Source of the DNA: Desulfovibrio porci | GTDB lineage: Bacteria > Desulfobacterota > Desulfovibrionia > Desulfovibrionales > Desulfovibrionaceae | Assembly: GCF_009696265.1 (NCBI RefSeq) | Contig: NZ_VUMH01000009.1 | Coordinates: 62,001-126,000, forward strand | Reading direction: 5' to 3' | DNA length: 64,000 nt | Part shown: positions 55,641 through 60,540 of the stretch, piece after piece | Layout: each line of letters begins with the position of its first letter | Numbering within the stretch: the first letter of the stretch is position 1 | Made by a program: the position numbers and the translations under genes | Notes under the pieces: generated by a model | What the model was told of the DNA's origin: nothing | What the model saw: the letters and a program-made list of their open reading frames with translations, nothing else | Databases searched by the model: none

Positions 55641-56741
55641 ATGGACCCACAGAAAAAAAGCTTTGAACTTGAAGAAAGCGCCGCGCGTCTGGCCGACGCC
55701 GCAGTGGATAAAATAGTTTCCTTTCCCGGAGATTACGCGCAGCATCAACGGATTTTGTACGATCTGAAGACGGAACTGACGGACCTCGGCGCGGTGGTTT
55801 GCGCCGGGACCGGGGAGCGCGCCGACGCCTGCGGCAATACGCTGCCCGACGAGCTCAGGTGGCGGCTGGCCGGGGACATGCCGGGTTTCTCCACTGAAGC
55901 CCTGTACCAGAAGCGCTCTTCCCTTTTGTCCATGGGCGGCATCGTCTTCTTCGGCTATCTGCTGGGCGGCCTTTTGTCCACGGTGCTGGGCTGGCTGGAC
56001 ATGGGCGGGGACATCATCCGGGTGGTCGCGGTCTGGGCCATGTTTTACGCTTCGGAATATCTTTCGGCCAATCCCAAGGCGCGTTTACGGGTACTGGCCT
56101 TTCTGGGGCTCGGAACCCTGGCCGGGTTCGCCGTGGGCCTGATGTCGGGCATGCTCCGCCTGACCTCCTGGGCCGGAATCAAGCGGGCGGTTTTCGGAAG
56201 CGGGGAAACCGCGCCGGGCCTGCTGAAACGCTGGTATCTGCTGCTGGGGGCCGCCTTTCTTTTTGTTTTTCTGTCCAAAAAGGTCACGGCCCTGGATGTG
56301 ACGGCCTTCAAACATTCGCTGCAAAAACAGGCGGCGGAGAGGATGCGTTGTCTGCTCGTCTTTTTTGAGGAGCTGAACCGCCGCGACGCCGAATTGGCCG
56401 AACTGAAAAACAGCCGGAGTCCCGACCTGAGTTCCGTGAAATGTCCCAAAAACGATTGTCTTCTCGCGCGGGACGTCATCCAGATGCTGGATGCCTTTGA
56501 TGCGGACACCAGGACATTTCTGGCCGAAAAGCTGGCCGCCGTGGGCTATGAGACGGATTCCGGCCAAGACGATTTTCTGGTCTGGAACGGAGCGGAGCAC
56601 GAAAAATTCTACGATATGGTGGGCCTGGTCAGGGACGGGGACCGTTGCCGCATCCTCAAGCGCTGCTACATGGCCGGCGAAAAGATTGTCAGGGGCTATG
56701 TGCAGCGGGATGCCGGGGAACAGGGATCGTCACGGGAGTGA
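55641..56741 (+). CDS. Membrane protein of unknown function, partner of an Hsp70-like ATPase
   Basis: A 366-aa protein I cannot assign to a family. Residues 1-90 are soluble and acidic/helical. Three to four membrane helices span about 95-215 (SMGGIVFFGYLLGGLLSTVL, then IIRVVAVWAMFYASEYL, LAFLGLGTLAGFAVGLMSG and YLLLGAAFLFVFL). The C-terminal part (about 220-366) is soluble, with helices, a CPKNDC motif near 270 and a final strand-rich segment. GGGAG precedes the ATG. The gene is 3 nt upstream of the Hsp70-like gene, so the two are translated together and the products probably interact. Confidence 0.85.
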   Translation: MDPQKKSFELEESAARLADAAVDKIVSFPGDYAQHQRILYDLKTELTDLGAVVCAGTGERADACGNTLPDELRWRLAGDMPGFSTEALYQKRSSLLSMGGIVFFGYLLGGLLSTVLGWLDMGGDIIRVVAVWAMFYASEYLSANPKARLRVLAFLGLGTLAGFAVGLMSGMLRLTSWAGIKRAVFGSGETAPGLLKRWYLLLGAAFLFVFLSKKVTALDVTAFKHSLQKQAAERMRCLLVFFEELNRRDAELAELKNSRSPDLSSVKCPKNDCLLARDVIQMLDAFDADTRTFLAEKLAAVGYETDSGQDDFLVWNGAEHEKFYDMVGLVRDGDRCRILKRCYMAGEKIVRGYVQRDAGEQGSSRE

Positions 56742-56744
56742 AAG

Positions 56745-58721
56745 ATGAAGAGTATCGGCATTGATCTCGGCACCACCAATACCTATCTCTACGGGACCGG
56801 CGGCGCTTCGGCCGAGCCCGCCCCGCTGACGCTGCCGCGCATCAGCGATGAAAACGGCTGCATAGCCACGGTGGTTCTCTATCAGGACCACAAGCCCCTG
56901 CTCATCGGCAACATCGCGGAAAGCGAATACCACACCAACCGTGCCGCCATGCCCGCGCGGACCCTGCGCAGCCAGTTCAAGCCCGAAATCGCCCACGGCG
57001 ACTCCGAGGCCATGGAGTGGATGACGGATTTTTTACGCGAACTGCGCGCGGCGCTGCCCGAGGGCGTTCTGGAGCCTGAAAGCCGCATTTATGTGGGCAT
57101 GCCTTCCCGGACCAGGGAGGATTTCAGCCTCAATCTGGCCCAATGTTTCGTGCGGGCCGGCTGGCCCCGCCCCGCCTTTGTCAGGGAGTCGGACGCGGCC
57201 ATGATTTCCTGCCTTCAGTCCGGAGCTCTGAGCATCGACGATATCGAAAACAGGGCGCTTATCCTGGATTTCGGCGGCGGCACCTGCGATTTCACCAGCC
57301 TGGAAAGCATGGACGTGCTCCAGAACGGCGGCGATCCCCTGTTTGGCGGGCGCTTGTTCGATGATCTGCTGTTTCAGGTTTTCTGCCGTAAAAACGAGCT
57401 CTTCCAACGGGACGCGCCCGGCTCCGGCTATGAATATTATCTGCACTGGATTCAGTGCAAGGCCGAAAAGGAGCGTTTTTCGGACGCCGTGGCCCTGGAC
57501 GGGGCGGCCAGGGTCAGCCTGCACGCCGTGTGGCATGACGCCCGCGGGAACAGACAGGACGCCTATGTTCACGACTATACGCGGGAGGATTTCATCAGGG
57601 ATGCGGAAAACTACGCGGCCACGGACAGCCTGCGCGCCATGCTGGGCCAGTATGCCGACAGGGGCGGCCTGAGCCCGCAGGCCCGGGATCTGCTGCAAGG
57701 CCGACGGATCGGCCTGCTCTCCTGGTTCAGAAGCATTCTCGGCGGCATTGACGGCCGCCGGGATATTTCAAAAGTCATTCTCACGGGCGGCAGCAGCCGC
57801 TGGTTTTTCGTCCAGGACATGGCGCGGGAGCTTTTCCCCGCCGCCGAGCGGGCCATGAGCCGCCGCACGTATGAGGACATCGCCTACGGCCTGGCCCTCT
57901 ATCCGGTCCTTTCCGAGTCGCACGCCGCCGTGCGGGCGCTTCTGGGCGAGAAAATCGAGACCTTTGCGGATCAGGCCTGCGAAGTGGTGCGGAACATCGT
58001 GGCCAAGCACGCCACATTCGCCGTGCGTCTGTGCACGGAGCGCATTGTGGACCGGGACATCATGCCCGTGCTGGAAGAAGCCCGGAAAGTGCAAAAAACC
58101 GTGGAGCAACTGGAGCGGGCCTTTGTGGAAAACATCCAAAACGATGCCGGGCTGCTGGCCGTCATCAGGGAAAAAACGGAAGCCCTGCGCGAGGAAATCC
58201 AGTACGAATTGCAGCAGCGTTTCAGGGCCTGGCTGCGCCGGAACGGCGTCCCGCTAGCCCCGCGCTTTGAATTCCCCGCGCGGGCGCTCAGCAATGACTT
58301 TTTCGACGCCATCAGCGTAAAGGTGTCGCGCCTGGCTTTTCTGAACATCATGGATTTCATGGCCTCGGCGGTGCTGCCGGGCATTGCCGCCTACGCCGTG
58401 GCCGGGGCCATAGCGCACACGGGCGAGGCTGTCTCCGCCGTGCTGGGCGGCGGCGCGGCCTTTATGGGCGTCTGGGGCCTGGGGAAAGTGGCCAAGGGCT
58501 TTTTGTGGAAGCGCAAGCTGCCCAGGTTTTTCCTCACGGAAACGAACCGGCGAAAGATTGTGGAGAAAAACAAGGCCTATATTGAAGCGGCGTTGGGCAA
58601 GGCTTTCGCGGACGTCCAGGCCGGACTGGCGGACGATGCGGAACGCAGGCTGCGCCACGCCCTTGCCTCCATGCTGTCCAGGCTGACGGTCCTGAATCAG
58701 GTGCGTTGCGCGCGGCCGTAG
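56745..58721 (+). CDS. Divergent Hsp70-family ATPase with membrane-inserting C-terminus
   Basis: A 658-aa protein whose first 390 residues form an Hsp70/actin-type ATPase: phosphate-1 [13 protein letters not shown] at the N-terminus, phosphate-2 LILDFGGGTCDFTSLE (about 170-185) and the adenosine motif KVILTGGSSRWFF (about 342). In place of the usual substrate-binding beta-sandwich is a long helical stretch (about 420-535), two hydrophobic segments (about 535-590: FMASAVLPGIAAYAVAGAI and AVLGGGAAFMGVWGLG) and a final helical part rich in Lys/Arg. It is clearly distinct from DnaK of this genome. It follows the membrane protein gene by 3 nt. Function is unknown; the layout suggests an ATPase acting on or in the membrane. 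Confidence 0.9.
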   Translation: MKSIGIDLGTTNTYLYGTGGASAEPAPLTLPRISDENGCIATVVLYQDHKPLLIGNIAESEYHTNRAAMPARTLRSQFKPEIAHGDSEAMEWMTDFLRELRAALPEGVLEPESRIYVGMPSRTREDFSLNLAQCFVRAGWPRPAFVRESDAAMISCLQSGALSIDDIENRALILDFGGGTCDFTSLESMDVLQNGGDPLFGGRLFDDLLFQVFCRKNELFQRDAPGSGYEYYLHWIQCKAEKERFSDAVALDGAARVSLHAVWHDARGNRQDAYVHDYTREDFIRDAENYAATDSLRAMLGQYADRGGLSPQARDLLQGRRIGLLSWFRSILGGIDGRRDISKVILTGGSSRWFFVQDMARELFPAAERAMSRRTYEDIAYGLALYPVLSESHAAVRALLGEKIETFADQACEVVRNIVAKHATFAVRLCTERIVDRDIMPVLEEARKVQKTVEQLERAFVENIQNDAGLLAVIREKTEALREEIQYELQQRFRAWLRRNGVPLAPRFEFPARALSNDFFDAISVKVSRLAFLNIMDFMASAVLPGIAAYAVAGAIAHTGEAVSAVLGGGAAFMGVWGLGKVAKGFLWKRKLPRFFLTETNRRKIVEKNKAYIEAALGKAFADVQAGLADDAERRLRHALASMLSRLTVLNQVRCARP

Positions 58722-58806: not shown

Positions 58807-60540
58807 ATGAAAGAAAGCGCAGTACTGGGCATTGACGCGGGCGGCACCCATACCGACGCGGTGCTGATCACGGGCAACGGGGCAAGTCCGCGTCTGGCGG
58901 CGTCGGCCAAGGTCAAAACCCGCCATGACGATCTGCCCGCCTCGGTGCGGGAAGTGCTGGCGGCCCTGGCCGGGGAGCTGGGCGGCGCGGGCGCGGCGTT
59001 TCTGGCTGAAGTGGAGCGTGTGACCCTGGGCACCACCCTGGCGGTCAACGCCCTGGTGCAGGGCCGGGCCGACAGCGTGGGCCTGGCGCTTTCCGCAGGG
59101 CCGGGTCTGGACCCCGCGCGTTTCGGCCTGGGGGAACACGTCTGCGTGATTCCCGGCGGCCTGGACCACCGGGGCGTGGAGGTCAGCCCCCTGCAAACGG
59201 ACGAACTGGCCCGGCGGGCGGCCCGCTGGCGCGATGAAGGCGTGGCCGCCGTGGCCTGCGTGGGCAAGTTTTCGCCGCGCAATCCGGCCCACGAGCGGGC
59301 CATGGGCGCGGCGGCCGTCAAGGCGTCGAGCCTGCCCGTCACCCTCGGGCACCGGCTCTCAGGCCGACTCAATTTCCCCCGCCGGGTAGCCACGGCCTAT
59401 TACAACGCGGCCGTGCAGCGCCTGCACAACGATTTTCTGGACGTAGTGGAGGCGGCACTGGCCGACGCGGGCATCCACGCGGCCACCCGCCTGCTCAAGG
59501 CCGACGGCGGCGCGGTGCCGACATCCCTTTCGCGGCGCGAGCCGGTGCAGTCCATTCTGTCCGGCCCGGCGGCCAGCGTCATGGGCGTCATGGCCCTCTG
59601 CCCGGAAACGGAGCAAGGTTGCTCCCTGCTGCTGGACATGGGCGGCACCACCACGGATATGGCCCTGTTCTTTGACGGCTCGCCGGTCATCGACCGTGAC
59701 GGCATGCTGCTGCAAGGCCGCCGCACGCTGGTGCGCGCCCTGGCCTCCACGTCCATCGGCGTGGGCGGGGATTCCCTGCTCAGCGTGGACGGCTCGGGGC
59801 GGGACGCGCGCGTACGCACCGGCCCGCTGCGCGACGGTCCGGCCCTGGCCTTCGGCGGCGCGCGGCCCACGTTGCTGGACGCCTTGAACGTGCTGGACGC
59901 CGAGGCCGCTCCCGGCGCTTCCGCTGACCGGGGCGATATGGCCGCTTCCCGCGAGGGGCTGGCGACGCTGGCCGCCGCCCACGGTCTGGATGCGCGCGTC
60001 CTGGCCCAAAAGGCCGTGGACGACGCTCTGGCGCAGGTGGCGCTGGCCGCGCGCGAGCTTGTGGAGGCCGTGAACGCCCGGCCCATTTACACCCTGGCCG
60101 CGCTCAAGGCCGTGCGCGAGGCCAGGCCCGAGCGCGTCTGGCTGGTGGGCGGCCCGGCGGACTGCATCCGCGAGCGTCTGGGCGCGGCCCTGGGCCTGCC
60201 GGTAGCCAGCCCGCCGCACGCCGCCGTGGCCAATGCCGTGGGCGCGGCCCTGACCCTGCCCACAGCCGGACTGGAAATTTATGCGGACACGGGGCGCGGC
60301 CTGCTGCGCGCGCCCGCTCTGGATCTGGAGGAGCGCATCAGCAAGGGCTACACACTGAACGCCGCCGAGCGCCGCGCCGGGGAACTGCTGGCCGCCCACC
60401 TGGCCGCCGAGGGCGTGCCGGACGCGGCCGTGGAAGTGGTGGAAGCCGACCTTTTCGCCACCCTGGACGACGGCGGCTACGGCTCCAAGGATATCCGGGT
60501 GGCCTGCCAGGTGGTGCCGGGCATTGCGGGGCGATTGTGA
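58807..60540 (+). CDS. Hydantoinase/oxoprolinase family protein
   Basis: A 577-aa protein of the ATP-dependent hydantoinase A / 5-oxoprolinase family. It starts with an actin-fold nucleotide site, VLGIDAGGTHTDAVLI, and has a second one, LLLDMGGTTTDMALF (about 275-290), plus a TLGTTLAVNALVQG segment. Substrate could be a hydantoin, 5-oxoproline or a related cyclic amide; the usual partner HyuB-type subunit is absent. The start ATG at 58807 has GGAGCGGGC upstream. Confidence 0.85.
   Translation: MKESAVLGIDAGGTHTDAVLITGNGASPRLAASAKVKTRHDDLPASVREVLAALAGELGGAGAAFLAEVERVTLGTTLAVNALVQGRADSVGLALSAGPGLDPARFGLGEHVCVIPGGLDHRGVEVSPLQTDELARRAARWRDEGVAAVACVGKFSPRNPAHERAMGAAAVKASSLPVTLGHRLSGRLNFPRRVATAYYNAAVQRLHNDFLDVVEAALADAGIHAATRLLKADGGAVPTSLSRREPVQSILSGPAASVMGVMALCPETEQGCSLLLDMGGTTTDMALFFDGSPVIDRDGMLLQGRRTLVRALASTSIGVGGDSLLSVDGSGRDARVRTGPLRDGPALAFGGARPTLLDALNVLDAEAAPGASADRGDMAASREGLATLAAAHGLDARVLAQKAVDDALAQVALAARELVEAVNARPIYTLAALKAVREARPERVWLVGGPADCIRERLGAALGLPVASPPHAAVANAVGAALTLPTAGLEIYADTGRGLLRAPALDLEERISKGYTLNAAERRAGELLAAHLAAEGVPDAAVEVVEADLFATLDDGGYGSKDIRVACQVVPGIAGRL

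Follow-up and report, generated by a model that had tools for sequence, protein, structure and literature searches.

Hsp70 proteins are usually viewed as a nucleotide-binding domain (NBD) joined via a linker to a peptide-binding domain. Bacterial dynamin-like proteins follow a different order of parts, with an NTPase, helices, a hydrophobic segment, and further helices. GrpE, described as the sole known type of bacterial exchange factor, uses its beta-domain to wedge open the nucleotide cleft of DnaK (PMC4753570). Conflict systems centered on GAP1-N2 GTPases hold GrpE-Hsp70 pairs, in some of which the Hsp70 has no peptide-binding domain (PMC7159879). The part of the literature on cyanobacterial DnaK3 cited here presents it as a thylakoid-membrane-binding chaperone (PMC7281324).

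We analyzed a gene pair within a 64,000-nucleotide stretch of Desulfovibrio porci DNA (the window). The pair, which some sulfate-reducing bacteria carry, is, as judged from sequence, a variant of the Hsp70 ATPase module with a putative function. It keeps the ATPase, trades the peptide-binding part for a predicted membrane hairpin, and has a membrane partner that may exchange nucleotide. Literature searches returned no description of this gene pair, which represents a real and conserved two-gene family, apparently undescribed and unnamed. Its features, in window coordinates, are as follows.

55641-56741, + strand: gene A, a 366-aa integral membrane partner protein (open reading frame; homologues upstream of B; dN/dS 0.31-0.38)
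55923-56282, + strand: transmembrane region of A (residues 95-214), about four transmembrane helices (hydropathy; predicted helices of low confidence)
56460-56708, + strand: C-terminal soluble domain of A (residues 274-356), tentatively GrpE beta-wing-like (conservation; profile match; model)
56745-58721, + strand: gene B, a 658-aa Hsp70-type ATPase with a predicted membrane-inserting C-terminus (open reading frame; HSP70 matches; dN/dS 0.19-0.26)
56745-57902, + strand: Hsp70 NBD of B (residues 1-386; profile-profile match to the DnaK NBD, P=2.5e-22)
56754-56783, + strand: phosphate-1 motif (sequence aligned with DnaK)
57258-57293, + strand: phosphate-2 motif LILDFGGGTCDF (D175, GGGT, and D182 do not vary across the family)
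57777-57812, + strand: adenosine motif ILTGGSSRWFFV (GG.S.W.F nearly invariant in the family)
57903-58319, + strand: C-terminal helical region in place of the linker and substrate-binding domain (SBD) (residues 387-525; no SBD match, no linker; predicted helices)
58332-58499, + strand: Gly-rich hydrophobic hairpin (about residues 530-585; evident from hydropathy in homologues as well as in the window)
58539-58706, + strand: terminal helix past the hairpin (residues 599-654; predicted at low confidence; ending conserved in Desulfovibrio homologues)

Both genes are open reading frames on one strand, and 3 nt separate the stop of A from the ATG that starts B, in agreement with the two-gene operon proposed in a previous sequence-only reading; in several homologues there is instead a 4-nt overlap between the frames. 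The dN/dS ranges listed above (0.31-0.38 for A, 0.19-0.26 for B) indicate purifying selection on both genes.

Like DnaK and HscA (PF00012), B carries an NBD with phosphate-1, phosphate-2, and adenosine motifs. The protein matched the Pfam model HSP70 (PF00012; 3.4e-6) and the NCBIfam model HscA/DnaK (3e-8), and the B family profile matched PDB chains of DnaK at 1.9e-20, with Hsp70s making up all of its best 60 PDB matches. When compared with a DnaK profile built from six DnaK-type Hsp70s of the same bacterial family, B aligned over the NBD only (P=2.5e-22), and the match ended at DnaK residue 378, with the linker at 390. The conserved phosphate-2 motif of B reads DFGGGTCD, and an invariant Glu of the family occupies the position of DnaK E171. 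By these sequence criteria the NBD is of the Hsp70 type with conserved nucleotide-binding motifs, as had been claimed for a divergent Hsp70 ATPase, and B, in which the nucleotide-binding residues are conserved, may bind and hydrolyze ATP.

The likeness to DnaK and HscA stops at the end of this domain. No VLLLDV-type interdomain linker was found in B, whereas the DnaK of the same genome has one at 390, and the C-terminal half of B did not match the DnaK SBD (P=0.18; 3 of 80 column shuffles reached the score). The beta-sandwich SBD with its helical lid is therefore, on sequence comparison, absent from B; the sequence-only reading had said as much, and the match to an Hsp70 SBD that would have spoken against it did not appear. 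Helices were instead predicted at low confidence at residues 393-449, 453-465, and 468-499. They are followed by a hydrophobic stretch at about residues 530-585 that hydropathy also places in the homologues, so the pair of hydrophobic segments previously noted near the C-terminus stands, and the proposal of a membrane-inserting tail is supported. An AlphaFold model of B made from four close sequences had a pLDDT of 41 and was set aside; because of this poor model, the helical C-terminus, also part of the earlier reading, rests on predicted secondary structure together with the missing SBD match. Thus, where DnaK and HscA have a linker and an SBD, B has a predicted membrane hairpin, and its partner, unlike theirs, is an integral membrane protein. 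DnaK3 resembles B as an Hsp70 at work on a membrane, the location of B being predicted; the cited part of that report mentions neither a membrane hairpin nor SBD loss for DnaK3 (PMC7281324). The earlier premise that Hsp70 relatives normally act on soluble substrates was too strong in light of this thylakoid chaperone.

By hydropathy, residues 93-122, 147-175, and 193-224 of A are hydrophobic, and a low-confidence model placed helices at 95-118, 123-143, 145-173, and 193-214, with both termini predicted on one side of the membrane. The C-terminal domain is the best conserved stretch between A sub-families, with a conserved W, Y[DE]..G, G, and late [KR]G, and was modeled as helices followed by short strands, the latter at a pLDDT of about 70-77. 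The three sub-families are clearly homologous to one another (P of the profile comparisons 8.5e-11 to 1.2e-11 or better). We found no credible family for A in Pfam, NCBIfam, PADLOC, or PHROGs; a single NCBIfam match at E=0.09 was far below the cut-off and was not credited. A Foldseek search with the model, in which long helices dominated the outcome, had no match at E<=0.001. The earlier label of unknown membrane protein for A was right about the membrane and is amended here by a conserved soluble domain that is tentatively GrpE beta-wing-like.

The closest named B records come from Desulfovibrio or Desulfovibrionaceae isolates (67-89% identical), two of them from goat cecum. Gene B was found in 19 of 79 Desulfovibrio genomes, with further members of the pair in other genera of Desulfovibrionaceae, in two genomes of a second class of the phylum (G595 and G730), and in 14 of 63 genomes of a third class; the pair is thus known from three classes of its phylum. 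At all 37 assessable loci, which exclude three with B at a contig end, the domain of A and gene B share a strand. The domain is directly upstream of B at 35 of them, making adjacency near-universal rather than the rarity that would have counted against the sequence-only reading. At the remaining two loci (L163 and L167), which lie outside the profile-building set, A and B are on the same strand and 1-2 kb apart. Detection of A in the third class is partly circular because most of its members entered the profile only once they had been noticed upstream of B; a profile of these members strongly matched the first two sub-families.

In the window, the pair lies between a divergent group that we take, from reading the sequences, to be ilvE-dnaX-yaaK-recR and genes that are presumably hyuA and glpK. 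Most Desulfovibrio carriers likewise have the pair as a cassette separating divergent ilvE and hyuA, and the same gap is empty (about 120-550 bp) in 15 non-carriers. From these occupied and empty sites, we conclude that the pair is gained or lost as a unit. One Desulfovibrio sub-clade has it at a different fixed site, and in other genera it adjoins housekeeping genes (neighbors read by eye); the surroundings are of a housekeeping kind and showed no defense island. This gene context gave no pointer to a substrate or pathway, no RNA families were recognized near the pair, and matches to promoter or terminator consensus sequences in its surroundings were near chance level. Searches of viral contigs and phages found no copies. 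Plasmid searches gave partial NBD matches only, one within an annotated Pseudanabaena GrpE-Hsp70 pair and the others in Sinorhizobium. We weighed HyuA as a further member of the system but left it out, because this core gene occurs in 77 of 79 genomes of the genus and adjoins ilvE in those without the cassette. In some relatives, the HyuA-type gene (58807-60540 in the window) starts within a few bases of the stop of B and may there be co-transcribed with the cassette. A profile match in genome G658 (L092) was dropped, as the open reading frame has no Hsp70 part.

The GrpE idea arose from reading the alignment of A, and the tests came afterwards. The domain of A shares with GrpE (PF01025) a G-x-V-x-V ... 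G-x-V-x-[RK] pattern and the order of helix then strands, and each is encoded directly upstream of an Hsp70-type partner. A Desulfovibrio-centered set of A sequences matched GrpE with a score that none of 300 shuffles reached. After re-alignment, two sub-families that share about 20% identity each matched GrpE in a single register, one with P=9e-4 and the other with P=2.7e-4; none of 60 shuffles reached these scores, which also exceeded those of 11 unrelated decoy profiles. The outcome depends on the alignment and on the GrpE set, with one combination at P=0.022 falling outside that register. Pooling the A set with two distant members gave P=0.047 (reached by 4 of 300 shuffles), the whole A family pooled gave P=0.011 (0 of 100 shuffles), and the third-class sub-family alone gave nothing (P=0.2 to 0.36). 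Pfam PF01025 matched none of 15 A members at E<=10, and a PDB sequence search with A did not find GrpE. Because the matches vary and the third sub-family, Pfam, and the PDB were negative, we hold homology to GrpE to be no more than plausible, and offer the GrpE beta-wing-like assignment as a new and tentative proposal. A also differs from GrpE in having about four transmembrane helices before the domain and in falling below Pfam detection. Divergent GrpE genes are found directly upstream of divergent Hsp70 genes elsewhere too, and such neighbors have also been reported (PMC7159879). The GAP1-N2 systems of that report resemble A-B in pairing an exchange factor, a role still tentative for A, with a reduced Hsp70. 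They differ in containing GTPases and other system genes, whereas A-B is a stand-alone two-gene cassette, and membrane segments are found in both A and B.

The computed part of our proposal is an Hsp70 NBD without linker or SBD, a hydrophobic hairpin, and a co-inherited integral membrane protein, A. The most likely reading of these features is an Hsp70 machine that is embedded in the membrane and works on membranes or their proteins. That A and B form one such machine, with A as its likely GrpE-like exchange factor, has in our judgment not quite an even chance of being right. The hairpin of B would insert into the cytoplasmic membrane beside A, and the ATP-driven opening and closing of the NBD would move the helical C-terminal part rather than a peptide-binding cleft. 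The C-terminal domain of A would sit against B on the cytosolic side. From there it would govern the ATPase cycle, and its most probable part in this would be that of a GrpE-like nucleotide-exchange factor tethered to the membrane, a role derived from the opening of the DnaK cleft by the GrpE beta-domain (PMC4753570), and A may thus be a built-in regulator of B. The machine would do mechanical work on the membrane or its proteins, by assembling, extracting, or remodeling them, as an accessory function carried by some strains only. A fuller version, in which the hairpin stands in for the SBD and an integral membrane factor for GrpE, so that a self-contained Hsp70 couples its ATPase cycle to the bilayer, is possible but rather speculative. 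If true, the pair would show that the Hsp70 cycle can drive something besides peptide binding. Its function is testable because A and B are small and the genus has natural strains that carry the cassette at a given site and others that lack it there.

Several other explanations share parts of this evidence. Membrane-protein quality control, in which the pair would recruit or extract misfolded membrane proteins, with A as a client or co-chaperone platform and no relation to GrpE, would suit the Hsp70 NBD, the predicted membrane anchoring, the housekeeping contexts, and the precedent of DnaK3 at thylakoids as given in the cited part of that report (PMC7281324). We consider it unlikely for a protein without an SBD; no J-domain or protease gene was noticed by eye beside the pair, and presence in just 19 of 79 Desulfovibrio genomes is unusual for general quality control. 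Somewhat less expected is a dynamin-like membrane remodeller, in which B would self-assemble on membranes, with an Hsp70 NBD for the GTPase, a helical neck, and the hairpin as paddle, and A would be its receptor. The predicted order of NTPase, helices, hydrophobic hairpin, and helices in B would be that of bacterial dynamin-like proteins, a likeness already remarked on from the sequence. This resemblance is architectural only, as the NTPase of B is an Hsp70 ATPase and not a GTPase and a sequence relation is not detectable. When the PDB was searched with a profile of the C-terminal half, no dynamin appeared among matches at E<=10, and the structural model (pLDDT 41) is unusable.

The patchy distribution, together with the Hsp70-GrpE pairs of predicted conflict systems, some without a peptide-binding domain (PMC7159879), could instead point to a defense or conflict module in which an NTPase is combined with A as a membrane-permeabilizing effector. 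A defense role, left open in the sequence-only reading, now appears very unlikely in view of the negative PADLOC search, the housekeeping neighbors, a locus that is fixed within clades, and the negative searches for phage and viral copies. It is similarly hard to credit, and if anything a shade harder, that B is an actin-like (MreB/FtsA-like), hairpin-anchored filament former and not an Hsp70. Pfam MreB_Mbl and HSP70 score about equally in some homologues, but the window protein scores HSP70 and not MreB_Mbl, and 60 of the 60 best PDB matches of the family profile are Hsp70.

Other pairings of GrpE and Hsp70 genes came up during these searches. On the Pseudanabaena plasmid pPg_01 (L093), a GrpE gene and a short Hsp70 family gene precede DUF1257, two ATPases, and DUF2997. 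A Desulfovibrio genome (G234, L083) encodes a divergent GrpE of about 190 aa beside a second Hsp70-type gene; this pair is additional to the canonical grpE and is another noncanonical GrpE-Hsp70 pair in the genus. A locus from the same order (L082, G160:C7:76163-76666) has a 295-aa open frame with a Pfam GrpE match at 5.5e-12 and a hydrophobic N-terminal segment, and its product is possibly a membrane-anchored GrpE-like protein.
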